A stretch of 54,161 nucleotides of DNA, from the IMG/VR virus record IMGVR_UViG_3300044732_000562, positions 1 to 54,161 of that record; one strand, given 5' to 3'. This document shows, one piece after another, positions 37,829 to 52,542 of the stretch (the first letter of the stretch is position 1; each line of letters starts with the position of its first letter). Origin of the DNA: a virus. The position numbers and the translations under genes are program-made. Under the pieces are notes generated by a model. That model did not search any database and had not been told where the DNA came from. It was given only the letters and a program-made list of their open reading frames with translations.

Positions 37829-37836
37829 TCTAAATA
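37829..37836 (+). promoter_or_regulatory. Late-promoter-like box TCTAAATA
   Basis: TCTAAATA ends 15 nt before the ATG at 37852, with AGGAG (37842-37846) as a strong ribosome site. It differs from TATAAATA at one position. It could launch the accessory cluster that follows. Confidence 0.42.
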
Positions 37837-37851
37837 CTTTCAGGAGTGTTT

Positions 37852-38157: not shown

Positions 38158-38957
38158 GCAAAGGTGCAATATTATTTGCGTTTAACTCCCCAAAGTTCAA
38201 TTACTATAAAATGGCAGTAGCTACTGCTAAACGCATTAATTATTTTTTAAATCTTCCAGTAACACTAGTTACGGATGAAGAATCACTACCCTCTATACAA
38301 CAATATACCTTTGACAAAGTTATAGTTACTAATGCTGATAAAAACAACATACGTGAACATGATATTTGGATTAATAAAGGGAGATATCAAGCATATGGAC
38401 TTAGTCCATATGACGAAACTATATTGTTAGATACTGATTATATGGTTAATTCAGATAAACTGTTAAGAACATTTAACATATATGATGACTTTTGTTGCCA
38501 TGATACTACTAGTTATTTGATGCAACCGGGGGTAGCACAGGAAGTATTAAGTGCATATAGTTTTAAAACATTATGGGCTACAGCAGTTACCTTTAAAAAG
38601 ACAAATAGGGCTAAACAAATTTTTGAATGTTTAGAAATGGTACAAAAGAATTATGACCATTATTGTGATATACACAGTTTTGTAGGTGGAGTATATCGTA
38701 ATGACTATGCACTAACACTTGCATTACGTATTGCAAATGGACATAGTGATAATACAAGAGACATTATCCCCTGGAACTTAGTACATGTGGGAAAAAACAC
38801 AAGTATATATAGGAACAACGATACAGAATTTAATACTGAATATACAGTAATGTATGATAGTTGGCAACGTGGTAAAATACGTAAAGAATATATAACAGTT
38901 AAAGATATGGATTTTCATGTTATGAATAAAAGTAATTTTATGGAGTTAATAGCATGA
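38154..38957 (+). CDS. GT-A-fold glycosyltransferase-like protein (DxD present)
   Basis: A 267-residue protein. The N-terminus GAILFAFNSPKFNYYKMAVATAKRINYFLNLPVTLVTDE is a nucleotide-sugar-binding start of GT8-like type. SPYDETILLDTDYMV follows with D93-T-D95 as the metal-binding DxD. The C-terminal half has IHSFVGGVYRNDYALTLALRI. It probably transfers a sugar from a nucleotide donor in the cytoplasm. It overlaps its neighbours by ATGA on both sides, and the next gene is a diverged paralogue, so the two are one unit. Donor and acceptor are unknown; the setting right after fibre genes suggests a virion or cell-surface acceptor. Confidence 0.7.
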   Translation: MSKGAILFAFNSPKFNYYKMAVATAKRINYFLNLPVTLVTDEESLPSIQQYTFDKVIVTNADKNNIREHDIWINKGRYQAYGLSPYDETILLDTDYMVNSDKLLRTFNIYDDFCCHDTTSYLMQPGVAQEVLSAYSFKTLWATAVTFKKTNRAKQIFECLEMVQKNYDHYCDIHSFVGGVYRNDYALTLALRIANGHSDNTRDIIPWNLVHVGKNTSIYRNNDTEFNTEYTVMYDSWQRGKIRKEYITVKDMDFHVMNKSNFMELIA

Positions 38958-39700
38958 CCAGAGGTTTTGTAATAATGGCACAAGACACTGATAAAATCAG
39001 TTATACTAACTGTGCTAAAGCATTAGAGTTGAGCATCAAAAAGGTTATGCCTAATAGTAATGTAACCATTATCACTAGTGATATGTTACCACATGGTAAT
39101 TTGGGAGGCTATCACAATGATTGGCAAGTTTATGAATGTAGTCCTTATGATGAAACTATTAAATTAGAAGCTGATATGATTATCCCACGTAGTATTGAAC
39201 ACTGGTGGGAGATATTAAATGTTAACGATGTAGTTGTTTCAACCAAAATCAGAAATTTTAAAGGTGAATTATCTGACATTAGAGTGTATAGAAAATTCAT
39301 TGATGAAAATATGCTGCCTGACACATATAATAGTATAACATATTTTAAAAAATCAGAAACAGCAAAGTTATTTTACACAATAGTAAGAGATATTTTTGAG
39401 AATTGGGAAGAGTATAAATCTATAATTAAATGTAATCCTAATGAAGAAGTATCAACTGATTGGGTATATGCCATGGCTTGTCATATTGTCGGAGTAGAAA
39501 AAACCACATTACCCAACTTTGATGAGATGAGTATGATACATATGAAACAATATGTAAATGGTATACCCAGTGAAGATTGGACTAAAACATTGGTATATGA
39601 AGTATTGCCAAAACTAATTAGAATCAATACTTATCCACAAGAGTATCCGTTTCACTATCATATTAAAACATTTAGTGATAAAATATTAGAAAGTTATTAA
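38954..39700 (+). CDS. Glycosyltransferase-like paralogue with altered DxD (EAD)
   Basis: A 248-residue protein aligned by eye with the preceding one. It shares GFVIMAQDTDKISYTNCAKALELSIKK (start), then NDWQVYECSPYDETIKLEADMIIP, where E72-A-D74 takes the place of the DxD. The end is diverged (KLIRINTYPQEYPFHYHIK). The shared SPYDETI core shows common origin. Replacement of the first Asp by Glu may change metal or donor binding, or mean that it acts only as a partner. It starts inside the stop of its paralogue (ATGA) and is followed directly by the 108-aa gene. Glycosyltransferase function is inferred. Confidence 0.62.
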   Translation: MTRGFVIMAQDTDKISYTNCAKALELSIKKVMPNSNVTIITSDMLPHGNLGGYHNDWQVYECSPYDETIKLEADMIIPRSIEHWWEILNVNDVVVSTKIRNFKGELSDIRVYRKFIDENMLPDTYNSITYFKKSETAKLFYTIVRDIFENWEEYKSIIKCNPNEEVSTDWVYAMACHIVGVEKTTLPNFDEMSMIHMKQYVNGIPSEDWTKTLVYEVLPKLIRINTYPQEYPFHYHIKTFSDKILESY

Positions 39701-40027
39701 ATGGAAGAGTTTATAATTTGGGAGGCTCCTCCTATCATTAAACCCGAGTTCAGATTATATTATGATGAACGTGGTAATGTGTTATTTTACACGTGCGAAA
39801 AACCTGAAGGTAACTATATTGTAATAGATACTGACACATATGCCCGAGGGAGGCCTGACATCAAAGTTATTGATGGCAAAATAGCCGGTTATAGAACAGG
39901 AACGATTGTGTCTAAATTAATACATGATGACAATGGTACTAAATGTGCAAGCGAAGATTTAAGTATCGTAGTAGATAGTCCTTATAATAACATAACTAAA
40001 TGGAAATTAAAAACATATGAACTCTGA
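39701..40027 (+). CDS. Small protein of unknown function in glycosyltransferase block
   Basis: A 108-residue protein, MEEFIIWEAPPIIKPEFRLYYDERG followed by VLFYTCEKPEGNYIVIDTDTYARGRPDIKVIDGKIAG and a polar end. It is predicted to be all-beta with no membrane segment. I do not recognise a catalytic motif. It starts directly after the upstream stop codon and its end overlaps the next gene by 11 bp, so it belongs to the same translational chain. Proteins with an IVIDTDTYARGRPDIKVI-like pattern may be general phage proteins, but I cannot name a family. Confidence 0.65.
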   Translation: MEEFIIWEAPPIIKPEFRLYYDERGNVLFYTCEKPEGNYIVIDTDTYARGRPDIKVIDGKIAGYRTGTIVSKLIHDDNGTKCASEDLSIVVDSPYNNITKWKLKTYEL

Positions 40028-40970
40028 TGATATCGTTGATGTAGCCGATTTAGACTGCATCTACCTCAGTTATGATGAACCACAAAAAGAAGAATTTTGG
40101 CTTAGAATAAAAAATATGGTGCCATGGGCTAAACGTGTTGATAGTGTTAAAGGTAGTGACGCCGCACATAAAGCCGCAGGTGAAGCAAGTGATACCGAAC
40201 GTTTTATTCTAATTGACGGAGACAACATGCCAGAAGAAAGTTTCTTCAACATTCAGTTAGACTTTACTGGTAAGGATGAATCATTCAAACGAGCACAGTT
40301 TCGTTGGAAAGCAATTAACAACATTAACGGACTACGTTACGGCAATGGTGGCATGAGTAGTTGGACTAAAGAATATGTTGCCAATATGAAAACACACGAA
40401 CATCAAAAAGACGGTGACGTATCACGTATTGCTGACTTCTGTATGGGCGGAGATGACAATTTATATTGGGCAATGTGGGATTGCTATTCAACTACATATC
40501 CAAACATGACACCATTTCAAGCATGGCGTGCCGGCTTTCGTGAAGGTGTTAAGATGAGTTTAGATAGAGGTGCTCGTCCTACTGTGGATCAATTTAAAGA
40601 AACAGTAGCAAGTCGTAACTTAGACAATCTGACCATATGGCATAATGTTGGTATGGATGTTGAGAACGGTGAATGGGCAATATACGGCGCACGTCTAGGC
40701 ACATACATGACCATGCTTACTCAATGGGATCACACTAATGTTCAATGGTTTGATAACTATATTACATTGTGGGAAGAACATGTAAATAGAAATCCTGTGC
40801 GTGAATCAGCGTTACTAGGAGCCGCACTACATGATAAACTAGGACTGCCAATGGCTACATTGGATAGTCTGCAAAGTAAATTTTTTAAACGTCATTACGG
40901 TGCAGACAAATACAATCGTGGTCCTTTAGTAACTGAGATGGATGTAATTAGAAAGATTGAAGGTTGGTAA
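40017..40970 (+). CDS. Third glycosyltransferase-like protein (DGD motif)
   Basis: A 317-residue protein. The N-terminal part DLDCIYLSYDEPQKEEFWLRIKNMVPWAKRVDSVKGSDAAHKAAGEASDTERFILIDGDNMPEESFF is a GT-A half, with D67-G-D69 as the metal site. Later motifs are RAQFRWKAINNINGLRYGNGGMSSWTKE and MTPFQAWRAGFREGVKMSL. The latter half is helical and ends in KIEGW. It is unlike the two GTs upstream apart from the metal motif. Base composition is less AT-rich than its neighbours. It overlaps the 108-aa gene by 11 bp and the radical SAM gene by one base (TAATG). Likely a cytoplasmic sugar transferase; substrate unknown. Confidence 0.68.
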   Translation: MNSDDIVDVADLDCIYLSYDEPQKEEFWLRIKNMVPWAKRVDSVKGSDAAHKAAGEASDTERFILIDGDNMPEESFFNIQLDFTGKDESFKRAQFRWKAINNINGLRYGNGGMSSWTKEYVANMKTHEHQKDGDVSRIADFCMGGDDNLYWAMWDCYSTTYPNMTPFQAWRAGFREGVKMSLDRGARPTVDQFKETVASRNLDNLTIWHNVGMDVENGEWAIYGARLGTYMTMLTQWDHTNVQWFDNYITLWEEHVNRNPVRESALLGAALHDKLGLPMATLDSLQSKFFKRHYGADKYNRGPLVTEMDVIRKIEGW

Positions 40971-42268
40971 TGGATAAAAATAATAAAAGCTTTTGTGCTG
41001 TCCCGTTTGTTAGTATTATGGTCAATACTGATACGACGGTTAGATACTGTTGTATGGTTAAAGGTTCACATAACAAATTAAAAAAAGAAGATAATAAATC
41101 ATTTTATACATGCAAAGACAATTTCATACACGATGCATGGAATAGCAAAGATATGCAAAACATTCGTAAGTCTATGATAGCCGGTGATAAGATTGAAGGA
41201 TGTGCTGTCTGCTACATGCAAGAAGAAAATGGTAGGACTAGTAATAGACAGCATTCTATTAACGAATGGCAATGGCGTTTAGGCAAAGAAAAATTAAATG
41301 ATCGGGTTCAGCAAGCTATAAAAAACGATGGCAAGTTAGATGACGAATTAGTGTACCTAGATTTAAGATTAGGTAATCTATGTAATCTTAAATGTAGGAT
41401 GTGCAATCCCTGGAATAGCAGTCAAATTTTTAAAGAACATATAGAAATTGCTGAGAATAATACTGCATATACGGATGTTTGGAAAAAAACATTTGGTAAA
41501 TTCCCTACTAATGTAATGGATGATCAACAATGGTTTGACCATGACATAATGTGGGATCAAGTTATTAGTCTGATCCCTCATCTTAAAAAAGTGTATATGA
41601 CTGGTGGAGAACCTACATTAATTAAGAACAACTTTAAATTTATGAAAAGTTGTATTGAGCAGGGAAGAAAAGATATTGTGTTGTTTTTCAATACAAATTG
41701 TACCAATATCAATAAGAACTTTTTAGAATTAATTAGTCAGTTTGATACTGTTAATATTAATGCTAGTTTAGACGGTGTGGGTATAGTAAATGAATATATC
41801 CGTGCACCTAGCGATTGGACACAGATTAGCAGTAATATTGAAAAATTAGCACAGATGCCAAATGTACATTTAGGCATTACCCCTACAGTACAAGTATATA
41901 ATGTGTTTGATTTGGTTAACATCATTAAATGGATAGAGGATTTAAATAACAAATTTAATAAAAATAGCTTTATAGATTTTTTAGTGAATACTCATCCTCA
42001 TCATTTAAATGTAAATATATTACCAAATGAACTTAAAAAAGAAGCATTAGATGAGTTAGTTGCTTATAGAGATAATTATATGCAGGTTCATAATCATATG
42101 ACCATGAATAGTTTAAACGGAATAATAGGATTATTGCAACAACCTAGAACAGAAAATTGGAAAGAAGAAGTAGAACGCTTTAGGACGTTTACCTTAAGTC
42201 TTGACCAACATAGAAATCAAACTATTAAAGATTTAGACCCTAGAATAGCAGGGCTTATGAATGATTGA
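40970..42268 (+). CDS. Radical SAM protein 1 (extra N-terminal Cys cluster)
   Basis: A 432-residue radical SAM enzyme. The [4Fe-4S]/SAM motif is C138-NLK-C142-RM-C145, with LDLRLGNLCNLKCRMCNP around it and TGGEPT downstream. Residues 8-80 hold further cysteines (FCAVPF, RYCCM, GCAVCYM) in the order seen in twitch or SPASM-type auxiliary-cluster domains, here placed before the barrel. Such enzymes often modify peptides or sugars. The start at 40970 forms TAATG with the previous stop. It overlaps the next radical SAM gene by 8 bp, and the two share domain order, so they arose by duplication and probably act in one pathway. Confidence 0.88.
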   Translation: MDKNNKSFCAVPFVSIMVNTDTTVRYCCMVKGSHNKLKKEDNKSFYTCKDNFIHDAWNSKDMQNIRKSMIAGDKIEGCAVCYMQEENGRTSNRQHSINEWQWRLGKEKLNDRVQQAIKNDGKLDDELVYLDLRLGNLCNLKCRMCNPWNSSQIFKEHIEIAENNTAYTDVWKKTFGKFPTNVMDDQQWFDHDIMWDQVISLIPHLKKVYMTGGEPTLIKNNFKFMKSCIEQGRKDIVLFFNTNCTNINKNFLELISQFDTVNINASLDGVGIVNEYIRAPSDWTQISSNIEKLAQMPNVHLGITPTVQVYNVFDLVNIIKWIEDLNNKFNKNSFIDFLVNTHPHHLNVNILPNELKKEALDELVAYRDNYMQVHNHMTMNSLNGIIGLLQQPRTENWKEEVERFRTFTLSLDQHRNQTIKDLDPRIAGLMND

Positions 42269-43523
42269 TAACGAAAACTTTTGTATCCAGCCCTGGATTC
42301 ATTTAGCTAGCTGGAACGATGGCAATGTACCGCTCTGTTGCATTGCATCACCTGAGGTTGGATTAAATCTTAATCAACAAACTCCCAGTGAAGTATGGAA
42401 CAGCGAACAATTCAAATCCGCTAGACTAAAATTTTTAGCCGGTGAAAAGATACCGCAATGTAATAGCTGTTGGAAAGAAGAAGCTAGTGGCATTAGAAGT
42501 CATAGAATAATAGAAAATGGCTTATGGCAACGTAAAATAAGCACTGAATACATTGAACAATTGATCACATCAACTAACCCAGACGGTAGTGTAGATTTCA
42601 AACCCTTATCATTAGATTTACGATTAGGAAACACATGTAACTTACAATGTGTAATGTGTCGTCCTAGAGATAGTAGTAAGTGGCTACAAGATAGTAAGAA
42701 ATTATCTACTATTTTAGTTAACCATGAAGCTAAAGGAGATTGGCAGTACAAAGCAAATAGTATCACTACTACTGATTGTTTTGATTGGTTTGAAAGATTA
42801 GAAACACAAAATTCATTAGATGAGTTTATAGGTGACATTAGACATATTATCTTCGGTGGCGGTGAACCATTATTAATTAAAGACCACGAAAGATTCATTA
42901 CTAAATTAGTAGAGTCCGGTGCTAGCAAAAATATTGAATTACGTTACCATACTAACGGTACTATACTGAATGAGAAGTTTATTGAGTTATGGAATAACTT
43001 TAAAGAAGTAGAAATCATGGTTAGTTTAGATGATTGGGGTACCCGTAATGATTACATTAGATATCCTGCTGATTGGAATGTAATTTCAAAAAATCTTGAT
43101 AGGTTAGACGAAACTGGAAATAACATTGTAGTTAGCCTATTAACCACAGTGCATGCCATGAATATATATTATATACCTGATTTTGCACAAAGTATTATAG
43201 GCCGCGATTGGAAAAAGATATGTAAACGTAACCAGGGATTAATGTCCATTGGTACGACTCATTGGCCTAAATATATGTCTACAACTGTATTACCTGTGCA
43301 AGTTAAAAATAAAATTATTCAACATTGGGAATCATTTACTGAGTTAAATAACAACGAACGATGGAAAAATAGAATCAAATCTCAGATTGAATACATGAAT
43401 AGTGTTGATGAAAGTAGTAAGTTCGCGGCTTTTATGGACTATATCAATAAATTAGATTCTATTAGACCTATCAAATTTGCTGAGTTGTATGCAGATTACT
43501 ATAGGATTTTAAATGATGTTTAA
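42261..43523 (+). CDS. Radical SAM protein 2 (paralogue of protein 1)
   Basis: A 420-residue radical SAM enzyme with C126-NLQ-C130-VM-C133 in LDLRLGNTCNLQCVMCRP and FGGGEPLL downstream. The N-terminal auxiliary cysteines (FCIQPW, PLCCIA, CNSCWKEE) mirror those of protein 1, as does SDP/TPSEVWNSEQFKSAR against DAWNSKDMQNIRKS. It carries YHTNGT and VSLDDWG in the barrel. The two may work in sequence or as a heteromer on the same substrate. Its end overlaps the aminotransferase-like gene by 11 bp. Substrate unknown. Confidence 0.88.
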   Translation: MIDNENFCIQPWIHLASWNDGNVPLCCIASPEVGLNLNQQTPSEVWNSEQFKSARLKFLAGEKIPQCNSCWKEEASGIRSHRIIENGLWQRKISTEYIEQLITSTNPDGSVDFKPLSLDLRLGNTCNLQCVMCRPRDSSKWLQDSKKLSTILVNHEAKGDWQYKANSITTTDCFDWFERLETQNSLDEFIGDIRHIIFGGGEPLLIKDHERFITKLVESGASKNIELRYHTNGTILNEKFIELWNNFKEVEIMVSLDDWGTRNDYIRYPADWNVISKNLDRLDETGNNIVVSLLTTVHAMNIYYIPDFAQSIIGRDWKKICKRNQGLMSIGTTHWPKYMSTTVLPVQVKNKIIQHWESFTELNNNERWKNRIKSQIEYMNSVDESSKFAAFMDYINKLDSIRPIKFAELYADYYRILNDV

Positions 43524-44361
43524 TAAGAACGCTATTCCTGTACCAAATAAGCATGTAGTAAAATTAATTAATTCAACAAAAACTGATGCCACACTAAGTG
43601 TATATGATACTTATATTGATGTGTTTGACAAATGGATCAAAGCTAGTAAAAATAATCATTTAGAGAACATAGAGTCTTACACAAATAAAAAGTTTATAAG
43701 TGGTACTATTCAAGCATTTGATCATTTTTATTTAAAATATAACAAACTACGTTTTAGATTTTTTCAAGGTGAGTTCATGTACCACCGAGCATCAATGAAA
43801 CACAATCTCAACTGGGAATGGCTAAATACTGAGCAGTTAATGATCGGTGATGCACTGATTATATCAGTACCGTTTAGTGATACCGGTTCTATGCATACCG
43901 AGTTGAACTCGTTGCTAGATAAGTGTGAAGATTTAGGCATACCTGTATTATTAGACATGGCCTATTATCCTATAACTAAGAATATCAATTTAAATTTGAA
44001 TTATACATGTATTGATACCATTTGTTTTAGTCTAAGTAAAGCATTTGATGGTGCTCAGTGGTTGCGTTGTGGAATACGTTATCAACGATATGACAATGAT
44101 GATGGAATTGATATATACAATTCTGTAGATATGACTCCAAAAATACCTATGCAATTAGCAATAGCATTAATGAATACTTTTTCTGCAGATTATAATTGGG
44201 ACACTTATGGAAAAACGTATAAAACTGTATGTGAAACACACAATCTTCAACAAACAGATTGTGTAATATTTGGTTTAGGGGATAATTCATTCAGTGATTA
44301 TAACCGAGGTGGTATAGTAAATAGAGTTTGTATTTCAAGGTTATTAGAACATGCCATTTAA
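43513..44361 (+). CDS. Compact PLP-dependent aminotransferase-like protein (fold type I)
   Basis: A 282-residue protein with two hallmarks of fold-type-I PLP enzymes. One is a strand-borne Asp, D148 in VLLDMAYYP, that would bind the pyridine nitrogen. The other is a Ser-Leu-Ser-Lys site, K176 in ICFSLSKAFDG, that would form the Schiff base, followed by RCGIRYQRYD. The segment MIGDALIISVPFSDTGSMHTELNSLLDKCEDLGIPV is the usual approach to that Asp. It is much shorter than typical aminotransferases (350-400 residues), mainly lacking a long N-terminal part, so activity is uncertain. Located between radical SAM genes with overlaps on both sides. It may aminate a keto-sugar or amino-acid intermediate. 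Confidence 0.65.
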   Translation: MMFNKNAIPVPNKHVVKLINSTKTDATLSVYDTYIDVFDKWIKASKNNHLENIESYTNKKFISGTIQAFDHFYLKYNKLRFRFFQGEFMYHRASMKHNLNWEWLNTEQLMIGDALIISVPFSDTGSMHTELNSLLDKCEDLGIPVLLDMAYYPITKNINLNLNYTCIDTICFSLSKAFDGAQWLRCGIRYQRYDNDDGIDIYNSVDMTPKIPMQLAIALMNTFSADYNWDTYGKTYKTVCETHNLQQTDCVIFGLGDNSFSDYNRGGIVNRVCISRLLEHAI

Positions 44362-45445
44362 TTATAACAATATTAAAAAGATTGAGTGGGAAATATCTAC
44401 TCATTGCAATGCACGATGCCCGCAATGCCCCCGTAATGATTACGGTGGCGCAACTGTATCAAGTCTGCCGTTGATAAATGTAACATTAGAAACAGCAAAA
44501 TCTATATTACCTGTTGAGTTTATTAAGCAATTAGAAGAAGTTTATTTCTGTGGAACATACGGTGATCCTTGTATGAATAAAGATTTAATACGTATATGTC
44601 AATGGTTAAAAGAAGTTAATCCCAAATTAGTAGTAGCGTTGCATACCAATGGCAGCTTACAAACTAAATCATTTTGGAAAGAAGCAGGCAAATATGTAGA
44701 TTGGATTGGTTTCGGTATAGATGGATTAGAAGATACTAACCATTTATATAGGGTCGATACTAATTGGCAAAAGATAATAAAAAATGTAAAAATATATATT
44801 GACAACGGTGGCACAGCTATATGGGATTTTATAATTTTTAGACACAATGAACATCAAGTTGATAAAGCGAGAGAATTAAGTAGTCAGTTAGGTTTCAAAG
44901 AATTTAGAGTAAAATATACAGCTAGATTCTTCAATAAGAAACACGAATTCATTATGCAATGGCCTGTGAAAAATAAACAAGGTGTAGTAGAACGCTATTT
45001 AGAATTACCTACTAATGTAGATTATCAAAATATGATTTATGTAGACCAAAAGAAGATTGCAACTGAACACGGGTCTATAAAACAATATCTTGGTAATACT
45101 ATAGTTGAGTGCCATTCACAGAAAACAAATCATATTTATATAAGTGCAGACGGTAATGTATTTCCATGTGGTTGGTTGCAAGATAGACTTTACGGAATAG
45201 AAGCAGAATCGCATTCAGATAAATATATGATGCAGTCAATGTGGGATACAATTGGCGGAAAGCATCTTGCTAACATACATCACACTAAATTGCATGATAT
45301 TGTAAACGGTCCTTGGTTTAGTATATTAGACAAATCTTTTAATTCTGATATTAGATTGGAAAGATGCAGTGCAATTTGCGGAGAACTTAATTTTATAGGT
45401 TCTCAAAATAGAGATGTGAATCAAAAGATTCCAATTATTGGTTAA
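44351..45445 (+). CDS. Radical SAM protein 3 with SPASM-like C-terminus
   Basis: A 364-residue radical SAM enzyme with the motif near the N-terminus, C19-NAR-C23-PQ-C26 in EISTHCNARCPQCPRNDYGG. Barrel motifs FCGTYGDPC and LHTNGSL follow, and a C-terminal SPASM-like segment with IVECHSQ, ISADGNVFPCGW and LERCSAICGEL. Its domain order differs from proteins 1 and 2. The last codons (QNRDVNQKIP) lie in the first copy of a 28-nt direct repeat (45407-45434). The second copy, at 47204, encodes the same residues with a different ending, so this gene end was probably rebuilt by insertion of the cassette that follows. It overlaps the aminotransferase-like gene by 11 bp. Confidence 0.88.
   Translation: MPFNYNNIKKIEWEISTHCNARCPQCPRNDYGGATVSSLPLINVTLETAKSILPVEFIKQLEEVYFCGTYGDPCMNKDLIRICQWLKEVNPKLVVALHTNGSLQTKSFWKEAGKYVDWIGFGIDGLEDTNHLYRVDTNWQKIIKNVKIYIDNGGTAIWDFIIFRHNEHQVDKARELSSQLGFKEFRVKYTARFFNKKHEFIMQWPVKNKQGVVERYLELPTNVDYQNMIYVDQKKIATEHGSIKQYLGNTIVECHSQKTNHIYISADGNVFPCGWLQDRLYGIEAESHSDKYMMQSMWDTIGGKHLANIHHTKLHDIVNGPWFSILDKSFNSDIRLERCSAICGELNFIGSQNRDVNQKIPIIG
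45407..45434 (+). repeat. 28-nt direct repeat, left copy
   Basis: Identical over 28 nt to 47204-47231. Starts AATAGAGATG and ends GATTCCAA. It encodes the last residues of radical SAM protein 3 before its own IIG ending. The copies lie 1797 bp apart and bound the SGNH, 37-aa and carbamoyltransferase genes. Confidence 0.95.
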
Positions 45446-45447
45446 AA

Positions 45448-46101
45448 ATGAAATTTGAACATAAAGATATATTAATTTTAGGTGATAGTTTTGCCGAATT
45501 ACGATCACTACCGACTCATTGGCCGTTTATAGTTTCTCAAAAATTATCCAACAGCAATGAAAAAACTCGAGGATATGGATTTGCCGGAGCTTCTTGGTGG
45601 AGCGTACGCAAACGACTATTAAAGGAATTACAATTACATGTACCAAAAGTATTACTATTATGCCATACTGAACCTAATAGGATACCCAATGATTATGATT
45701 ATGGGCTTACTTCCCGTAGTGTCCAGAATGGTAAATTTTATAATCCTGAGGGAACACACATTGATCCAATAAAAAATCTTGCAATTGCTAAAGCCGGACA
45801 ATTATACTATGAAGAACTTTGGTCCCGTGATTATTGTAAATGGGCAATGGTTTCTTGGTTTAAAGAATTAGATGATCTTGTAGAAGTTTATAAAATTCCC
45901 TGCGTAATACACTTACGGTGTTTTGATCATGGATATATATTTAAAAACGGTATGACTGTAAAAGAAAATCTAGTTGATATGTCTTTGGTAGGAAATGAGT
46001 ATAGCAATCATTTTACAGAAGAATTAAATAAAAAAGTAGGTAATAGATTAGTTGAGTTGGTGTTAAATTATCAACCTGGATTACAAGAATTGGCGCTATG
46101 A
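45448..46101 (+). CDS. SGNH/GDSL-type hydrolase or acyltransferase
   Basis: A 217-residue protein with block I ILILGDSFAE (nucleophile S14) and a Gly-rich block II in YGFAGASWWSVRKRL. A block III counterpart is LLLCHTEPNR, and H188 in SNHFTEELN corresponds to the catalytic His of block V (usually D-x-x-H). Such enzymes remove or move acyl groups, commonly acetyl groups on glycans. No signal peptide, so it acts in the cytoplasm on a precursor, or in the virion. It is the first gene of a 1.8-kb cassette bounded by the 28-nt direct repeat and starts 2 nt after radical SAM gene 3. Family assignment is fairly secure, substrate unknown. Confidence 0.72.
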   Translation: MKFEHKDILILGDSFAELRSLPTHWPFIVSQKLSNSNEKTRGYGFAGASWWSVRKRLLKELQLHVPKVLLLCHTEPNRIPNDYDYGLTSRSVQNGKFYNPEGTHIDPIKNLAIAKAGQLYYEELWSRDYCKWAMVSWFKELDDLVEVYKIPCVIHLRCFDHGYIFKNGMTVKENLVDMSLVGNEYSNHFTEELNKKVGNRLVELVLNYQPGLQELAL

Positions 46102-46125
46102 AAACTTTTATTATGGGGATACGTT

Positions 46126-46239
46126 ATGAATAAATTTTTTTATTATATTTTAAGACCACTAAAGTGGTATAAAGCAAGGCAAGAACGCAAACGCCGTCTT
46201 GATGAATTACGTAAACAAGATCCGTTTATATACAAATGA
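46126..46239 (+). CDS. Very small basic protein, 37 aa
   Basis: A 37-codon frame beginning MNKFFYYILRPLKWYKARQ and ending RKQDPFIYK. A short hydrophobic aromatic N-terminus is followed by a strongly basic helix. GGGGA (46115-46119) lies 6 nt before the ATG, and its TGA overlaps the ATG of the carbamoyltransferase as ATGA (46236-46239), so the frame is very likely translated and coupled. The shape suggests a membrane-edge or partner peptide of the next gene. As a peptide surrounded by radical SAM enzymes it could also be a modification substrate, but it lacks a clear core or leader pattern. Function unknown. Confidence 0.72.
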   Translation: MNKFFYYILRPLKWYKARQERKRRLDELRKQDPFIYK

Positions 46240-47177
46240 TACATTGGGGAATCAATGCTCTTAATCACGGTTCAAGTTTAGCTATTTTTAATAATAACAA
46301 ACTTAAATCATGGTATAACTGCTCAACAGATGAATTAGATACTTCAGTTATTACAGAAGCACTTTATTACGGAGCTCCTAATAATATCTTTTGGTATGAA
46401 AGACCTTGGGTTAAAAAAGCAAGACAAGTCTATGCCGGTCAATATGATACCGCATTAGATATGAATGTCCTTCCTAAAAGATATCTTAATAAAACTAGAT
46501 TACATTATGCACCTGTAAGATATACCCCACATCATGCTAGTCACGCGGCTGCGGGTTATTATACTAGTACTTTTAATCATTGTGCTGTTGTTGTACTAGA
46601 TGCTATAGGAGAGTTTGAATGTGCTACTATTTGGGAAGCAAAACACGGAGAAATGAAAAAAGTATGGAGTCGTGGTTATCCACATAGTCTAGGATTATTC
46701 TATAGCGCATTTACACAACTTGTTGGATTAACGCCAATTAAAGACGAATACTTATTACAACAAATGGCAGAACAGGGTAATCCTAAAAGATTCCGTATAC
46801 AAGTATCTAATTATTTTGGTTCGGACACGCTAAAATTAAATTATAATTTTCATAAAGGTGTGCAGGACTGGATATTACACACAGAAGAACAATGTGACCT
46901 TGCCGCATCAGTACAAGAACGTTTTGAAATAGAAGTAAGTAAAGTTATGCAATTAGCTGTACAGTTAACAGGTGCAGATTGTTTAGTTTATATGGGTGGA
47001 TGTGCTATGAATAGCCGAGCAAATGAAAATGTAGTAGAACCGTTGTTCAAATATAGATGGAGTTTACCTAACCCAGGCGACCCTAGTAGCAGTATTGGAT
47101 CAGTACTATATCATACAAAAAATAGAGAATGGGATTTTAAATGGAATCCTGTTAAACATATCAAAATTAAAATTTAA
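46236..47177 (+). CDS. Carbamoyltransferase, NodU/TobZ family, Kae1-like half only
   Basis: A 313-residue protein with the N-terminal ASKHA/Kae1-like domain of O-carbamoyltransferases. It starts WGINALNHGSSLAI, carries the metal-binding H99-H100-A-S-H103 motif in PHHASHAAAGYYTS, then VVVLDAIGEFECATIW, DEYLLQQMAEQGNP and GADCLVYMGGCAMNSRAN. In TobZ-type enzymes this half makes the transfer from carbamoyl adenylate to a hydroxyl, and a C-terminal YrdC-like half (about 200 residues) makes the adenylate. That half is missing here; the frame ends soon after PGDPSSSIGS. It may use a partner from elsewhere in the genome. Likely target: a sugar of a surface glycan. Confidence 0.8.
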   Translation: MIHWGINALNHGSSLAIFNNNKLKSWYNCSTDELDTSVITEALYYGAPNNIFWYERPWVKKARQVYAGQYDTALDMNVLPKRYLNKTRLHYAPVRYTPHHASHAAAGYYTSTFNHCAVVVLDAIGEFECATIWEAKHGEMKKVWSRGYPHSLGLFYSAFTQLVGLTPIKDEYLLQQMAEQGNPKRFRIQVSNYFGSDTLKLNYNFHKGVQDWILHTEEQCDLAASVQERFEIEVSKVMQLAVQLTGADCLVYMGGCAMNSRANENVVEPLFKYRWSLPNPGDPSSSIGSVLYHTKNREWDFKWNPVKHIKIKI

Positions 47178-47203
47178 AAGACAAAAAAATAAATCTGTTA
47201 AAT

Positions 47204-47231
47204 AATAGAGATGTGAATCAAAAGATTCCAA
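47204..47231 (+). repeat. 28-nt direct repeat, right copy with coding remnant
   Basis: Identical to 45407-45434. Read in the same frame as the left copy it gives NRDVNQKIP and then TKEG and a stop (47243-47245), 4 nt before the ATG of radical SAM gene 4. It is therefore a leftover end of radical SAM gene 3, placed directly before gene 4, not random intergenic sequence. Confidence 0.92.
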
Positions 47232-47249
47232 CTAAAGAAGGATAAATTA

Positions 47250-48167
47250 ATGAAACATCATTTAATTTACACTGAATTTTATATTACACACGTTTGTAAC
47301 TTAAATTGTACAGATTGTAATAGATTTAATAACTATGCCTTTAAAGGCCATCATCGTTGGGACGATGCTAAAGAAGCATACAGTAACTGGTCAAAGATAT
47401 TAACTATAGGAACTATTGGCATTATAGGTGGTGAACCGTTACTCAATCCGGATCTTTTTAAATGGATTGAAGGCCTAAAAATCTTATGGCCTAATGCAAA
47501 TATTCTTATTGTAACCAACGGAACAAGATTGAATTACGTTCCTAATTTGTATCAAGAAATTTTAAAATATAAAGGTAAGGTTGGATTGGACGTTAGTCAT
47601 CATGATCCGAGTACTTGGGTAAATGCGTTTACAAATTTAGAATCGTTTTTAGACAAAGACATAAAAAAAGAAATTCATAGTAACAAAGTATGGAATGATT
47701 GTTTAAATGAAGATCATTCAGTTACCATGTTTAGATATACAGACCGTAATAACATACAATCTAGACTAATCCCCTCATGGCATTTTAAAGATAGTAGTTT
47801 AAAATATGAAAATTCTGAATTTTCCCTACATGAGAGTGATCCTAAAGAAGCCTTTAAAAATTGTATTATGCAAGACTGTCATCATATGATGGATGGCAAA
47901 TTGTACAAATGTGCTCCTATAGGAGTAATACCAAAATTTATGGAACAGTATCATGTAACACTTACTACAAATCAAAAAGAGTTAATAGATAGTTATGCCC
48001 CCGCTGAACATAACTGGAGTGGTGAAAAATTAGATAAATTTATGAACAATTTAATTTCAAAAACTCATATACCACAATGTGCATTGTGTTCGGCAAACCC
48101 TAAACATAAATTAATTACAGCAGATACCAAAAAGCCAAAAATCTATCCTATTAATAACCAATATTAA
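47250..48167 (+). CDS. Radical SAM protein 4
   Basis: A 305-residue radical SAM enzyme with C16-NLN-C20-TD-C23 in YITHVCNLNCTDCNRF, GIIGGEPLLNPD, and LIVTNGTRL. Downstream cysteines (FKNCIMQDC, LYKCAPIG, IPQCALCSA) could hold an auxiliary Fe-S cluster, again of SPASM or twitch style. GAAGGA lies 8 nt before the ATG, inside the coding remnant of the right direct repeat. This suggests it once followed radical SAM gene 3 directly. It differs clearly from the other four, so these are not recent copies. Substrate unknown. Confidence 0.86.
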   Translation: MKHHLIYTEFYITHVCNLNCTDCNRFNNYAFKGHHRWDDAKEAYSNWSKILTIGTIGIIGGEPLLNPDLFKWIEGLKILWPNANILIVTNGTRLNYVPNLYQEILKYKGKVGLDVSHHDPSTWVNAFTNLESFLDKDIKKEIHSNKVWNDCLNEDHSVTMFRYTDRNNIQSRLIPSWHFKDSSLKYENSEFSLHESDPKEAFKNCIMQDCHHMMDGKLYKCAPIGVIPKFMEQYHVTLTTNQKELIDSYAPAEHNWSGEKLDKFMNNLISKTHIPQCALCSANPKHKLITADTKKPKIYPINNQY

Positions 48168-48177
48168 TGTTAAAAAA

Positions 48178-48215
48178 TTGACAGTAGCACTCAGTGTATT
48201 AAATACACAGTGAGT
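48178..48215 (+). promoter_or_regulatory. Promoter with overlapping palindrome before radical SAM 5
   Basis: TTGACA (48178-48183), 16 bp and TAAATA (48200-48205) form a sigma70-like promoter. The same -10 reads ATTAAATA (48198-48205) as a late-box variant, 22 nt from the ATG at 48228. GTGTATTAAATACAC (48194-48208) is a palindrome covering the -10, extended by ACTCA and TGAGT on its flanks. A regulator site on the promoter, or a transcript hairpin, is plausible. Confidence 0.5.
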
Positions 48216-48227
48216 TAAGGATCTAAG

Positions 48228-50309
48228 ATGGCACGATTTCTAGAAGATAAAAATGTACGGATTACCCTCGTCAATCCTACAACATGGGAACACTATGATA
48301 TATATTTCAGGTTATTTGAAACTGAATTAGCAAAAAAATGGGTTAAAGCATTTGAAAAAATGAATTTTAGTGAAAAACGTATAAGAGAAAAAAGTGTCAA
48401 ATTCTCCCGCAGTAATACATATACGTTAGATACACTGACCGATCGTGGCAAAATAGACAAAATTAATCGTATTATTGATTATTTAAATAGTTTTTATGAT
48501 AGAGAAATACGTCGGGCAACAGTAATAGACCAAGATACTCTTAATTATCTACATGAAGAATATGAAATATATGGCAACCGATTAGCTGAGAAATTATCTA
48601 AAAATTGGTGGGACGATGCATGGAAACGGTTAGATAAGGACGATCCTCAAGCTGTACGATGGCCTGGTATACGATTTAATGAAGAATTTCACACGACCTT
48701 TTTACAGTTGAATGATACGATTCATACGTTAGAGATGTTTTTTAATACCAGTATACCACAACGTAATAACTTACCAACCTTCTCAAATGTTAATATATTG
48801 ATGAGTTACGATCCTAGACTAGATTATGAAATAACAGAAGAAGATAGCGCATCGTTTTTTCCTTATTATAGATTTGGCGATTTGGTATTAGGTTACAACA
48901 CATTAGGAAAAAATATTTCTCATATTGTATTAGATGAAGACACCCGCGCCGCAGAAGAAAATGCCGTTGTACTACAAACTACTTGGTCAAATGAAATTAT
49001 GGCATTATTAGGTGCTGACAATGCTACTCCGGATTATAAAACAAAACAATATCACAGATTTAAAAAAGTAGGATTAGAACAACATGGATGGAAGTTTGGT
49101 GACCATCGCAATAGAGAAGGATATTTATTAATTGGTCATTTGTATGAAGTTCAAGAGGATGACCTATACAAAAATGCCGGCGGGTTAAAAATGGATTTAA
49201 CTCCCTTTTCAAGTGTAAAATCTGTGGAAATTGTATCTGACACACAGATGACTGCAGCCTATACAAATCCTACTACTAGTAGGATCCCTCATTGGAAGGG
49301 CCCATTACCACTTCAAGGGAAAAAGATTATAGAAATAAAAAATGAAAGTTGGGCTATAATTACATGGATATTAAATGATATTTGCAACTATAGCTGTAGA
49401 TATTGTCCTCCGGTATTACATGAAGGTAAAAATCATTTATTTGATTGGGATGTAGTAGAACCATTTCTAGACGATCTATTTTTATTCTACGGACTTAATT
49501 TAAATAAAAAATTATTGTTTTCTCTAAGCGGAGGAGAACCTACACTGAGCCCGTTCTTCCCGGACCTAGTTAAAAAAATTCATACTCTAGGTGGATATAT
49601 AGGTATTACTACTAATCTAGCTAGGACACCACGCTATATTGAGGAGAACTTCAAATATCTATCATATGCTGGTTGTAGCTTTCATCCAGCACAAGAATTT
49701 CCAAATAATACAGCAGATGAATGGATAGAAAAAGTTAAGATAGCATCAAATTTAACTATGGTAACTGTTAGATTGATGATGGATCCGTTATATTGGGATA
49801 AGTGCATTGAGTTTATTGATAGAATAAAGAATGAAACTACTGCCCGATTAGAAGTAGTGTACATTGATGACCAATATGGATCTTCTAAAAATAAGCTAGT
49901 TGATCTTAAGTACACACCTGAACAGTCTGAATTTTTTAAGAATTTTAAAACTGTTGCTACAAAAACTACTGCAGTAAAAATATTAGAAACTAATCCTTTG
50001 TTTAGGAAATATTCAAGTAATGCCGTCATTACATATGAAGATAGTACGTCAGAAGTAATTAATAGTCCGCAAATGCTGATTAACAAAGGACAAACAAATT
50101 TCTTTGATTTTAGATGTGCAATAGGTACTGAAAGTATGTTTATACATCAGTATGGTCACATTAAACGAGGAAATTGTGAAGTGGGTGGTATTATTGGTAA
50201 TGTAAAAGATCATAAGAAAATAGATTGGAATAGTTTATTGAGAACGGTAATATGTGATTCTGTTAGATGCAGTTGTGGTGCTGACATCCCTATTTCAAAG
50301 AAAAGTTAA
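48228..50309 (+). CDS. Radical SAM protein 5 with large novel N-terminal domain
   Basis: A 693-residue protein. The radical SAM motif sits far inside, C386-NYS-C390-RY-C393 in WILNDICNYSCRYCPP, followed by SLSGGEPTLSPFFPDLV and GITTNLART. Residues 1-360 form a separate part without recognised motifs, with FETELAKKWVKAFEKMNFSEKRIREK, HEEYEIYGNRLAEKLSKNWWDDAW and a beta part including RFKKVGLEQHGWKFGDHRNREGYLLIGHL. C-terminal cysteines (FDFRCAIG, RGNCEVGG, ICDSVRCSCGADIP) suggest an auxiliary cluster. It has its own promoter region and is followed directly by the next gene. The N-terminal part could bind the substrate. Enzyme class secure, reaction unknown. Confidence 0.85.
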   Translation: MARFLEDKNVRITLVNPTTWEHYDIYFRLFETELAKKWVKAFEKMNFSEKRIREKSVKFSRSNTYTLDTLTDRGKIDKINRIIDYLNSFYDREIRRATVIDQDTLNYLHEEYEIYGNRLAEKLSKNWWDDAWKRLDKDDPQAVRWPGIRFNEEFHTTFLQLNDTIHTLEMFFNTSIPQRNNLPTFSNVNILMSYDPRLDYEITEEDSASFFPYYRFGDLVLGYNTLGKNISHIVLDEDTRAAEENAVVLQTTWSNEIMALLGADNATPDYKTKQYHRFKKVGLEQHGWKFGDHRNREGYLLIGHLYEVQEDDLYKNAGGLKMDLTPFSSVKSVEIVSDTQMTAAYTNPTTSRIPHWKGPLPLQGKKIIEIKNESWAIITWILNDICNYSCRYCPPVLHEGKNHLFDWDVVEPFLDDLFLFYGLNLNKKLLFSLSGGEPTLSPFFPDLVKKIHTLGGYIGITTNLARTPRYIEENFKYLSYAGCSFHPAQEFPNNTADEWIEKVKIASNLTMVTVRLMMDPLYWDKCIEFIDRIKNETTARLEVVYIDDQYGSSKNKLVDLKYTPEQSEFFKNFKTVATKTTAVKILETNPLFRKYSSNAVITYEDSTSEVINSPQMLINKGQTNFFDFRCAIGTESMFIHQYGHIKRGNCEVGGIIGNVKDHKKIDWNSLLRTVICDSVRCSCGADIPISKKS

Positions 50310-51626
50310 ATGAAATTAATTTATGCAATTAATGAGTATGGTCCTCATGGACCCATCCCCAACTCGTTGGGAATGTCTCACAATGAATATATCTCACATT
50401 ATTACAAAACTCCTATGAAGGTAGGGATGACATATTTTACAGATTCACCTATAAATGCAATACTAGGAATAGATTATATGCATGTTCACCATAGTGATCT
50501 TGTAAATAACATAGATTATTACTCTGAACAAGGAACTATTGTTTATAATATTAACATACAACATAATATAAAGTATATAATATCATTGTATTATGGAAGT
50601 GGTAGAGGAATTTGGATAGAACATATCCCTAAAAACATTATTGAACTATGGACAAAAGGAAAATGTAAAATAATTATTTCGCATAATTGGGCTGATTGTG
50701 AGATAGATGTTATCAATAGAATATTTGATCTGTTCCTGAAAGAATTTGGAACCTGTAGGGATTTTTATATATGGTCAACTTCTATATTTCACCCGGACAT
50801 ATTAGGAATACTAAATGAATTATATAGAAACAATTTAATACATATGCCAATGGCTGAAATATGGAGTCTAAAAAAATTACCACAGTATCACCCAACTAAG
50901 TGTGAAAAAGATAAAAAATTTATTAAATTGGCTAGGCGATACACATTAGATAGATTGATGTCACATGTCACTTTTACAAAAGAAGATTTAAATAAGTATG
51001 GGTTTATATCAATTCCTGCCGAAAGCACTTCAACCAGTTTACCATTGAATGACTATATAAAACATACATATAAAAATGAAGAATGGATTAAGATTATTGA
51101 TGAAATAGATTTGCAACCATCCGTTCTTGACCAATCAGCACTGACAGACAGAAACCGTAGTACGTACACCGGATCATGGATGGGATTTGCAAATAAAGAA
51201 AATTTAGCAGAATATTATGACAGGTCATATTTTAGCATTGTATCAGAAAGTAGATTTGACGAAGCAACCGACATGAAAACGGGATTTTTTTATACAGAAA
51301 AGATTATCAGAGCTATGCTATATGAACATCCTTTTATATTACAATCGGTGCCACATGCATTAGAACATATTAAGATAGCCGGGTATAAAACATTTGATAA
51401 ATTTTGGGATGAAGATTATGATACCATAACTAATCATTCACACCGAGTATATCGTATAACAGAAATTGTTAAAGATATATGTTTAAACAAAGATTTAAAT
51501 AAAATGTCGGAAGAATGGATTGATATTGTAACACATAATAAAAATCATGTGTCTGCTAGGGTAGAAGAATTTAAAAATTATTTAAAAGGATTAAAAAATG
51601 AAAAAAGTATTAGTAACGGGACTTAG
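50310..51626 (+). CDS. Glycosyltransferase-like protein (GT-B / GT10-like C-terminus)
   Basis: A 438-residue protein. The C-terminal part YYDRSYFSIVSESRFDEATDMKTGFFYTEKIIRAMLYEHPFILQSVPHALEHIKIAGYKTFDKFWDEDYD has the F-x-T-E-K...P-F-I...G-Y-K-T-F-x-x-x-[FW]-D-E-x-Y-D pattern of fucosyltransferase-like and related phage transferases, where it forms the donor-binding half. The N-terminal half (IYAINEYGPHGPIPNSLGMSHNEYIS) is not recognised. It starts right after the stop of radical SAM gene 5 and overlaps the epimerase gene by 29 bp, so it shares a transcript with both. Probably adds a sugar made or edited by the neighbouring epimerase. Moderate certainty. Confidence 0.6.
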   Translation: MKLIYAINEYGPHGPIPNSLGMSHNEYISHYYKTPMKVGMTYFTDSPINAILGIDYMHVHHSDLVNNIDYYSEQGTIVYNINIQHNIKYIISLYYGSGRGIWIEHIPKNIIELWTKGKCKIIISHNWADCEIDVINRIFDLFLKEFGTCRDFYIWSTSIFHPDILGILNELYRNNLIHMPMAEIWSLKKLPQYHPTKCEKDKKFIKLARRYTLDRLMSHVTFTKEDLNKYGFISIPAESTSTSLPLNDYIKHTYKNEEWIKIIDEIDLQPSVLDQSALTDRNRSTYTGSWMGFANKENLAEYYDRSYFSIVSESRFDEATDMKTGFFYTEKIIRAMLYEHPFILQSVPHALEHIKIAGYKTFDKFWDEDYDTITNHSHRVYRITEIVKDICLNKDLNKMSEEWIDIVTHNKNHVSARVEEFKNYLKGLKNEKSISNGT

Positions 51627-52515
51627 TGGATTTATAGGTGGATATCTACAAAAAAGATTACAACACAAATATGAAATATATGATTTGGGTTGTGATTTAT
51701 TAGAGCTGGCAAAAGTAGACCAGCGTTTGCAAGAAGTTAATCCAGACATGATTATACACTTGGCAGCAAGAACAGAAGTTGAAAAGAGTTTTTACGAACA
51801 AATTACTTTTAGCGAGATTAATTATGTAGGCACAGTTAATCTTATTGAATGTGCAAGAAAACTTAAGAACCTAGAATTATTTTTATTTAGTTCTACTATG
51901 GAAACCTATGGATGGCAACCAGAAAGTGATTTAATTGAACATGGTAAAGAGTTTGTATTACCAGTGTTTACTGAAGAAACTAAACAACATCCCAATGCTC
52001 CGTATGCTGTAGCTAAACTTGCTTGTGAACATTATTTAGAATATGCCGGTAGGGCATTTAACTTCCCTTTCTGTGCATTAAGACAGACTAATACATATGG
52101 TAGAAACGATAATGATTTCTTTGTAGTTGAGCAAATTATCACACAAATGTTAAGTAATCCAAATGAAATTAATTTGGGGTATGGAAAACCCTATAGGAAT
52201 TTTTTATGGATTGATGACTTACTAGACTTATATGAAGCAGTGCTAGCAAATCCAGATAAATCACGTAAAGAATTCTTTTGTTGTGGACCCGACAATGCAG
52301 TTACAATTGAAGAATTAGTTAATATGATTGCAAGTAAGTTGAACTGGAAAGGTTTAGTTAATTGGAATACTAAACCAAAACGTGATGGTGAGATATATGT
52401 ATTAAATTCTACCCATGCAAAAGCAGAACGATTATTAGGATGGAGTCCAAAAGTTAATTTAAATGACGGATTGGACATGGCTATTGATTTGTGGAAACAT
52501 AAAAGAATTATTTAA
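51598..52515 (+). CDS. Extended-SDR NAD-dependent epimerase/dehydratase
   Basis: A 305-residue protein with the Rossmann motif VTGLSGFIG (G8-x-x-G11-x-x-G14), the catalytic Y136-AVA-K140, SSTMETYG before it, and the substrate-loop R-Q-T-N-T-Y-G-R. RNFLWIDDLLDLY and ERLLGWSPK are typical C-terminal motifs of nucleotide-sugar epimerases and dehydratases. It probably converts a nucleotide sugar used by the transferases of this cluster. AAGGA lies 7 nt before the ATG, within the end of the preceding gene (29-bp overlap). Whether it is an epimerase, dehydratase or reductase cannot be told from the sequence. Confidence 0.88.
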   Translation: MKKVLVTGLSGFIGGYLQKRLQHKYEIYDLGCDLLELAKVDQRLQEVNPDMIIHLAARTEVEKSFYEQITFSEINYVGTVNLIECARKLKNLELFLFSSTMETYGWQPESDLIEHGKEFVLPVFTEETKQHPNAPYAVAKLACEHYLEYAGRAFNFPFCALRQTNTYGRNDNDFFVVEQIITQMLSNPNEINLGYGKPYRNFLWIDDLLDLYEAVLANPDKSRKEFFCCGPDNAVTIEELVNMIASKLNWKGLVNWNTKPKRDGEIYVLNSTHAKAERLLGWSPKVNLNDGLDMAIDLWKHKRII

Positions 52516-52542
52516 TAATACTATACGATATTAAATAATCAA

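Follow-up and report, generated by a model that had tools for sequence, protein, structure and literature searches.

Five radical SAM genes in a probable exchangeable cassette behind the fibre-like genes of a viral genome

A distinctive feature of the record IMGVR_UViG_3300044732_000562, which belongs to a bacterial virus detected in metagenomes and is considered here over positions 1 to 54,161 (the window, 54,161 nucleotides in all), is a group of five genes for radical S-adenosylmethionine (rSAM) enzymes, designated A to E. The window also encodes a late-sigma-factor homologue, SbcCD-like proteins, baseplate proteins and, in a single open frame at 16487–34843, a protein of 6118 aa with a match to a PHROG virion structural protein in its first part. 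Behind two fibre-like genes come s103, GTa, GTb, s108 and GTc, and behind these the rSAM block and X (Table 1). Tail fibres and glycosyltransferases behind a baseplate module mark the host recognition cluster of T4-like phages, and this arrangement is found here, with weak fibre assignments; the locus is best explained as a fibre or host-recognition island of a T4-like phage. The block behind the conserved head, which ends with GTc, is best read from sequence comparison as a recombining cassette. The initial annotation had described a cluster of 9.4 kb. The rSAM genes do occupy 40964–50309, but the cassette runs over 40971–52541 and the operon starts at 37846, so the unit is bigger than first stated.

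All five rSAM proteins exceed the cut-off of the Pfam Radical_SAM model PF04055 (29.5 bits; A 36.7, B 45.5, C 41.8, D 38.8, E 32.7), and each has a CxxxCxxC motif at the cysteine named earlier: C126 in B, C19 in C, C16 in D, C386 in E, and C140 in A when counted from its TTG start (C138 from an ATG two codons further on). The motifs for the iron-sulphur (Fe-S) cluster, an intended check on the annotation, are thus intact at the level of sequence. A and B belong by score to the twitch rSAM family NF033640 (cut-off 170 bits), a sequence-defined family whose model gives no reaction; C (46.9 bits) and D (23.6) stay below the cut-off and E is unlisted at an E-value of 0.1. The extra cysteine clusters that had been pointed out are conserved. 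In B numbering, C8, C26, C67, C70, C126, C130 and C133 are invariant and C27 nearly so among 22 aligned relatives, A included; in rSAM C, C254, C273, C339 and C343 are invariant in 14 aligned sequences; and C630, C650, C676, C681 and C683 are common to five aligned fused proteins of the rSAM E type, a sixth (L023) lying outside the alignment. No close relative of D was found among the fetched loci.

Among the characterised families listed, none was reached at its cut-off by C, D or E. Candidates set aside in this way are prokaryotic viperin (NF038283, cut-off 180 bits; E 36.9, C 34.7, D 32.6, B 26.8), the tungsten oxidoreductase maturase (TIGR04317, cut-off 380; C, best of the five, 59.4) and MoaA (TIGR02666, cut-off 284; D 37.6). 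Phage isolates hold relatives of rSAM B (four records, 23–27% identity) and of the carbamoyltransferase (five, 25–38%), and none of rSAM E or of GTc.

Table 1. Features of the locus in window coordinates. Representative loci are the 42 rSAM B loci, and records the 30 virus records, defined in the text; PLP, pyridoxal phosphate; SDR, short-chain dehydrogenase/reductase.
Feature	Position	Strand	Basis
fibG2, tail-fibre-like protein with Peptidase_G2-like region	35663..36850	+	PF11962 2.9e-4; phrog_6427, phrog_14394; GATAAATA upstream
fib2, fibre-like protein	36854..37804	+	family in 17/42 representative loci and 22/30 records; alignment
late-promoter-like CTAAATAC ahead of operon	37830..37837	+	motif position
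s103, first operon gene	37846..38157	+	no function found by searches
GTa, GT8/glycogenin-like glycosyltransferase (weak)	38154..38957	+	profile against PDB: glycogenin-1 7.8e-4
GTb, paralogue of GTa	38954..39700	+	sequence comparison
s108, small conserved-head protein	39701..40027	+	82% identity in G005, 84% in G004
GTc, probable glycosyltransferase, GT-A-like fold; last conserved-head gene	40017..40970	+	model, Foldseek, VIA
probable exchangeable rSAM cassette (whole), 11.6 kb	40971..52541	+	left DNA homology ends in 13/13 relatives; resumes in G005
rSAM A, N-terminal-twitch	40964..42268	+	NF033640 366.3 bits
rSAM B, N-terminal-twitch	42261..43523	+	NF033640 368.1 bits
short PLP-dependent aminotransferase-like protein	43513..44361	+	NF006967 1.4e-5 (weak); family in 8/42 representative loci
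rSAM C, C-terminal SPASM/twitch	44351..45445	+	PF04055 41.8, PF13186 23.3 bits; Cys invariant in 14
possible SGNH-type enzyme	45448..46101	+	GDS motif at 12
37-aa basic microprotein, bridges operon	46126..46239	+	relatives by motif in L042, L046, L211
carbamoyltransferase, N-terminal domain only	46236..47177	+	PF02543 2.4e-25, 90.2 bits, cut-off 24
rSAM D, MoaA-like core	47250..48167	+	Pfam; single-member cluster
rSAM E, EN domain (about 1–365) fused to SPASM/twitch-like rSAM	48228..50309	+	alignment, model, VIA
GTd, glycosyltransferase-like by eye only	50310..51626	+	family in 5/42 representative loci
SDR nucleotide-sugar epimerase/dehydratase	51598..52515	+	PF16363 7e-41; phrog_540 9.3e-56
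X, long protein off window end, GTc-like domain; right cassette border	52543..54159	+	G005 identity, GTc profile

The left border of the cassette is sharp. We searched 30 virus records, namely two of the same phage, G003 (reached through rSAM E) and 27 drawn, mostly by length, from 80 baseplate loci; 18 of these 27 contain GTc, and the sequence-level reading covered 14 of the 18 (all except G022, G024, G028 and G029) together with G015. In 13 relatives (G009 left out) the DNA match from the left ends at 40972 (ten), 40982 (one) or 40985 (two). The GTc stop codon ends at 40970, which places the border between GTc and rSAM A. Within the cassette 11 of the 13 have no DNA match, and the short pieces in G018 and G017 add up to 273 and 311 nt. 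The G005 match picks up again at 52542, at the start of X. At the protein level GTc is 77–85% identical in six relatives, and A and B find matches of 26–31% in five of them, the sixth, G004, ending too soon. Seen from the other side, in 20 rSAM B loci, the block shared with A and B begins at 40974–40979 in L014, L015, L020, L021 and L064, at 40964 in L016 and at 40944 in L018; it crosses the junction in L017, and most of the others have a broken match with a later start. It is because of the sharp left border, the resumed match at X and these starting points that the block is read as a recombining cassette.

The association of rSAM genes with GTc is regular. An rSAM match (E-value up to 8.5e-4) lies at most 1.1 kb behind GTc in all 17 uncut baseplate-picked records with GTc, and at most 0.5 kb behind it in 16; in the eighteenth, G009, GTc is 92 nt from the contig end. 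Nine of the 17 nearest matches are over the Pfam cut-off, five (G008, G012, G014, G021, G027) are below it but are matched by our own rSAM profiles at 1e-5 or better, and in G024, G028 and G029 the call is a weak Pfam match alone. None of the nine records without GTc has an rSAM match; eight of them are fragments of 26–55 kb and may stop short of the locus. The ninth record, G015, is 191 kb long and includes this place, where it has other genes; it gave no match to fib2, GTc or rSAM over its whole length and none to GTa or GTb in the 19.9 kb read at the locus. As far as it was run, the co-occurrence check proposed with the initial annotation thus came out in its favour, with the rSAM genes behind GTc and a recurring kit of partners.

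The genes from 37846 to 47177 overlap or nearly touch (largest gap 24 nt, counting the microprotein at 46126). A gap of 72 nt separates the carbamoyltransferase stop from rSAM D and one of 60 nt precedes rSAM E, and because of these gaps D and E may have signals of their own. Late-type control, also proposed earlier, is partly supported. The sequence CTAAATAC occurs 16 nt upstream of s103, with a second copy at 43822, inside a gene, and GATAAATA occurs 27–31 nt upstream of the starts at 5260, 13081 and 35663 (31 nt for the last); two more plus-strand copies of GATAAATA are 165 and 230 nt upstream of the next start, and ATAAATA stands 23 nt upstream of 12577. Neither GATAAATA nor CTAAATAC is found on the minus strand of the window, the numbers for these two motifs being raw counts with no chance expectation behind them. 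The head of the operon therefore looks late-controlled, given the motif before s103 and those before other starts. In contrast, TATAAATA, the exact T4 late consensus, is absent from the plus strand of the window and depleted overall (16.4 sites expected but three found, each of them on the minus strand), and thus it was rejected as a late promoter used as such here. Across the whole window it looks as if avoided.

In the conserved head, fibG2 scores 20.7 bits against PF11962, under the cut-off of 25, and fib2, which has one to three tandem copies in relatives, matches nothing in Pfam or PHROG. GTa and GTb accompany fib2 on the same stretch in all 15 representative loci that are uncut there. 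GTc was modelled with a predicted local distance difference test score (pLDDT) of 82.4 and a predicted template modelling score (pTM) of 0.81. Foldseek matches the model to the PBCV-1 capsid glycosyltransferase (E-value 2.8e-4, probability score 1.00), and in the VIA comparison (Z about 8–9, best about 9) glycosyltransferases and nucleotidyltransferases are tied in the top rows. Since the top rows mix the two classes, the evidence for the class is moderate: the model points to a GT-A-like, that is nucleotide-diphospho-sugar transferase, fold, and GTc is a probable glycosyltransferase. Profiles of GTc and GTd found nothing meaningful in the PDB by sequence, the best GTd match having an E-value of no less than 0.88; GTd also lacks a Pfam match.

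At the right border, X is 78% identical over 377 aa in G005, and the GTc profile scores 235 bits on the continuation of X in L168. By eye, X contains repeated FDxSWHPD-like units (52543–54159 and L168:17260–19998), and weak GTc-like domains were also seen in open frames of 1000–2784 aa in other records.

The accessory genes bear out their earlier naming to different degrees. The SDR assignment is firm. The PLP-dependent protein has a weak family match; its Asp148 and Lys176 are invariant in eight sequences. The carbamoyltransferase has the N-terminal domain and lacks the C-terminal one, whereas the homologue in L011 has both PF02543 and PF16861. The possible SGNH enzyme shows the GDS motif without a Pfam match, its only homologue among the fetched loci being in L008, and GTd is weakly assigned as a glycosyltransferase.

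The locus is most economically explained by a glycan pathway whose first part is constant and whose last part can be exchanged, and which is linked to the fibre by its place and probable timing. A short glycan would be assembled by the constant glycosyltransferases, its most likely carrier being the fibre, which is encoded just upstream and would be produced in the same late phase. Enzymes of the exchangeable block would then make or decorate the outer sugars of this glycan. The rSAM enzymes might carry out radical epimerisation, dehydrogenation or deoxygenation, with EN, fused to rSAM E here, acting together with an rSAM partner, and the PLP, SDR, carbamoyltransferase and SGNH-like proteins would introduce amino, sugar-ring and perhaps carbamoyl or acyl changes. 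A swap of the block would change the fibre surface, possibly with an effect on recognition, and would leave the fibre and the core glycan intact. By analogy, O-antigen serotype cassettes follow the same logic of swapping an outer layer. The reading that we tentatively prefer, a real possibility, is that the enzymes of the cassette are exchangeable and tailor a glycan assembled by the conserved transferases, with the tail fibre as its most likely carrier. In its favour are the sharp GTc border, the contrast in protein identity between GTc and rSAM A and B, the rSAM genes behind GTc and their absence from G015, the company of GTa and GTb with fib2, the late-like motif, the tight operon, the GT-A-like GTc model, and, described below, the occurrence of EN both fused to an rSAM and as a separate protein and the gene island of phage Mosig. 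The initial annotation suggested that a virion or surface polymer is modified, and this stands as the best-supported reading, the annotation's interpretation as a whole being partly supported; the position that it gave the rSAM block, behind the fibre genes, is supported, GTa to GTc lying there as well.

Several observations weigh against the fibre-glycan reading. The right border is seen in one relative only (G005), and in G003 (L008) about 86 kb separate the GTc copy from the main cluster of rSAM genes. GTa and GTb are absent from the fetched stretch in 26 of the 42 representative loci, the fib2 alignment has no obvious conserved acceptor motif, and PF16861, the C-terminal carbamoyltransferase domain, is unlisted at an E-value of 0.1 in the window protein. 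Finally, bacterial contigs with related rSAM sets gave no match to fib2 or fibG2, and for this reason the fibre is not always the substrate.

The main rival holds that in infected cells the cassette changes a polymer of the host surface (O-antigen or capsule) and not the virion, for instance to block superinfection. The glycosyltransferases of the pelagimyophage host recognition cluster are interpreted in this way in the available text of Zaragoza-Solas 2020 (PMC7029224). Related rSAM sets are also present on Bdellovibrionota genome contigs, and the kit includes AspH-type oxygenases (PF05118), which we take to be related to the lipid A hydroxylase LpxO. A late-promoter-like motif and a place behind fibre genes do not suit this view, exclusion genes being usually early, and we noticed no polymerase, flippase or membrane transferase among the cassette genes, although no search was aimed at them. 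On balance we consider alteration of the host surface somewhat unlikely.

The structure predicted for rSAM E bears on the type of substrate. The model of E with EN has a pLDDT of 75 and a pTM of 0.50, and the VIA matches of its rSAM part are led by BlsE (Z 15.6, 251 residues, 4.1 Å) and SkfB (15.1), followed by anSME, MoaA, PqqE and viperin-like enzymes (13.7 each), with SuiB also among them. The model fits SPASM/twitch-like enzymes that act on sugars, nucleotides or peptides, without choosing between these. The presence of SkfB, anSME, SuiB and PqqE in this series would agree with enzymes that modify amino acids of a protein, either the fibre or the microprotein, in the style of maturases for ribosomally synthesized and post-translationally modified peptides (RiPPs), as would AspH-type hydroxylases near rSAM genes in 21 of 42 relatives and the 37-aa microprotein inside the operon. 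This microprotein, which ends in DPFIYK and overlaps the carbamoyltransferase start, is the only RiPP precursor candidate seen, and a candidate only; it recurs by motif in just three other loci. The top match, BlsE, belongs instead to blasticidin biosynthesis, its family model is named 'cytosylglucuronate decarboxylase', and it is a sugar-nucleoside decarboxylase. Moreover, no specific peptide-maturase model reaches its cut-off, and the set has glycosyltransferase-like genes and a nucleotide-sugar SDR on its flanks. Peptide-type modification is thus improbable in our estimate.

EN occurs mostly on its own. Outside the phage it is a separate protein of 311–348 aa in 24 of 34 matches, is fused to an rSAM enzyme in five and is 497–539 aa long in five, so that the EN-rSAM fusion is present in the window and five loci. 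Nine residues (N87, N106, H109, N162, H166, E169, Y223, G227, D238) are invariant across 13 sequences, which hints that EN is an enzyme. The idea that EN is a metalloenzyme, with N-H-E helix motifs in a pair (N106, H109, N162, H166, E169), was kept as a lead only, because L046, outside the 13, has other residues at both histidines; H109 and H166 are nearly invariant in the larger phage set. No fold match to EN was seen, which is no evidence for a new fold since the VIA rows cover mainly residues 370–688 of the fusion and EN was not folded alone.

The rSAM genes recur with a kit of partners. Of 74 rSAM B loci outside the phage, 68 gave an rSAM B frame, and with the window they reduce to 42 representatives at less than 90% identity; these loci were picked by rSAM B and their stretches end at 10 kb or less. 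An rSAM labelled A is directly upstream of B in 23 of the 42, and EN is directly downstream in 11 of 39. AspH-type oxygenases are present in 21 of the 42 stretches, a methyltransferase-like family of 181 aa (MT181, named by eye and without a Pfam match) in 20, SGNH-type proteins in 14, the carbamoyltransferase in ten and the PLP family in eight. Among the 27 baseplate-picked records, 17 have at least one rSAM match. The maximum, among 50 records chosen for an rSAM B relative, is 19 rSAM matches, found in each of G071, G076 and G079 (the records of L068, L077 and L081; 135–257 kb).

In bacteria, the best 80 of 190 matches to A and B gave 74 loci, of which 52 carry Bdellovibrio-, Bacteriovorax- or Oligoflexia-type titles, mostly metagenome bins. 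EN is present in three bacterial loci, one gene from an rSAM gene in L194 and L235. In L221 its distance to an rSAM gene is about 5 kb, and it has members of the AspH and of a 451-aa family beside it. The contexts include pantothenate genes (L235), NADH-dehydrogenase-type genes (L174) and a two-component system, an aldehyde dehydrogenase and GT2 (L221). These contexts were tried as a key to the substrate and rejected; there is no clear polysaccharide operon in L174, L184, L221 or L235, the four loci scanned. On one Bdellovibrionia contig of 936 kb, three clusters of A/B relatives (L177, L184, L202) were observed. Contigs binned as Neisseriaceae, Rickettsiales and Gammaproteobacteria (L190, L191, L211) have GTc- or GTd-like genes and several rSAM genes, and may be phage fragments.

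Modules of this kind are not new, but the anatomy here is, since earlier papers describe rSAM modules and none was found, in the open-licence literature covered, that mentions the GTc border, EN as a partner or a link to Bdellovibrionota. The annotation's view of an uncharacterised system therefore holds for function and not for kind. The available text on the Campylobacter phages CP220 and CPt10 gives 11 and 12 rSAM proteins, five of which form an interchangeable module (Timms 2010, PMC2853527). Like the locus in the window, that module is a five-rSAM block of a distantly T4-like phage, swapped between close relatives, near a baseplate lysozyme gene and adjoining two nucleotide-diphospho-sugar transferase genes; replacement of a block of five or more rSAM genes among related phages is likewise found here. 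Unlike it, the CP220 block has a glycine amidinotransferase, and PF02274, the model for that enzyme, is not listed at an E-value of 0.1 for any cassette gene. Thirteen CP220 genes of the region have no match to the profiles of GTa to GTc, EN, AspH or the carbamoyltransferase, and the CP220 rSAM proteins match the window profiles distantly (24% over 74% of rSAM C). A marine T4-like genome, TARA_ERS488813_N000010, resembles the window in its many rSAM genes, 12 in number, which are tied there to Fe-S cluster metabolism in the text available (Nishimura 2017, PMC5332604).

Close parallels are also offered by pelagimyophages, whose host recognition cluster contains tail fibres, glycosyltransferases and rSAM cassettes and, like the window locus, is variable, the two most similar complete genomes differing there by their rSAM cassettes (Zaragoza-Solas 2020, PMC7029224). 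A sharp GTc border and EN are not among the features described for that cluster in the accessible text. In the cultured Pelagibacter phage Mosig EXVC030M (genome MT647606, L249, announced in PMC7892664), 16.5 kb beside a tail-fibre gene hold AspH (two), PLP (5.7e-19), SGNH, carbamoyltransferase, MT181 and rSAM genes. Mosig thus shares the PLP, SGNH, carbamoyltransferase and rSAM families with the window at the same kind of place; in contrast to the window, the 20 genes tested have no match to GTa, GTb, GTc or EN. Five rSAM proteins are also mentioned for the Campylobacter phage CC_R7, and an enrichment of rSAM and glycosyltransferase genes for Tasman Sea viruses, in the portions of the literature covered; these portions contain no demonstrated function for a phage rSAM protein, and open-licence searches for twitch rSAM papers and for papers that link Bdellovibrio to rSAM gave nothing relevant, the text of PMC10783043 and PMC9902471 having no bearing on the matter either.

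Two further explanations place the enzymes outside glycan tailoring. The genes could be unrelated auxiliary metabolic genes, each acting on host metabolites. A metabolic advantage was proposed for the Campylobacter phage module in the text available (Timms 2010, PMC2853527), and genes for a porin, a racemase, a symporter and a solute-binding protein follow downstream in the phage. Block-wise exchange at one junction, the operon overlaps and the recurring kit speak against independent genes, which makes this explanation quite improbable. The set could, alternatively, make a hypermodified DNA base. Phages that use rSAM, PLP and glycosyltransferase genes for thymidine hypermodification are known, and such genes are together here. 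A place in a fibre locus and related sets on bacterial genome contigs make a DNA base most improbable; a search of ten records for Tet/JBP found no match and decides nothing, because its controls gave no match either.

A bolder extension of the fibre-glycan reading, rather unlikely in our view, is a phage 'serotype switch' by radical chemistry, in which conserved transferases linked to the fibre supply a constant glycan stub, horizontally exchanged rSAM cassettes add differing outer decorations to it, EN is a new type of enzyme that partners one rSAM, and the same kit serves Bdellovibrionota. If this were true, the kit would be shared with predators that also need to recognise the surface of their prey. 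The fixed junction narrows the question to what the head builds and what each cassette changes. The rSAM genes, common in this phage group, would also offer chemists new SPASM/twitch enzymes in naturally varied combinations.

Further observations concern the surroundings of the locus. Relatives of the first 1200 aa of the 6118-aa frame were seen in 75 loci outside the phage. In the record G001, past the window, a stretch of 6 kb (L168:6795–12732) encodes the Gram-negative porin (PF13609, 9.8e-20), an Asp/Glu racemase, a dicarboxylate symporter and the solute-binding protein, all of them outer-membrane or transport genes of host type; the betaproteobacterial look of the porin is an impression only. 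A sixth rSAM gene of the same phage lies about 28 kb past the window end, on the minus strand at L169:10751–11731, near a second SDR gene.

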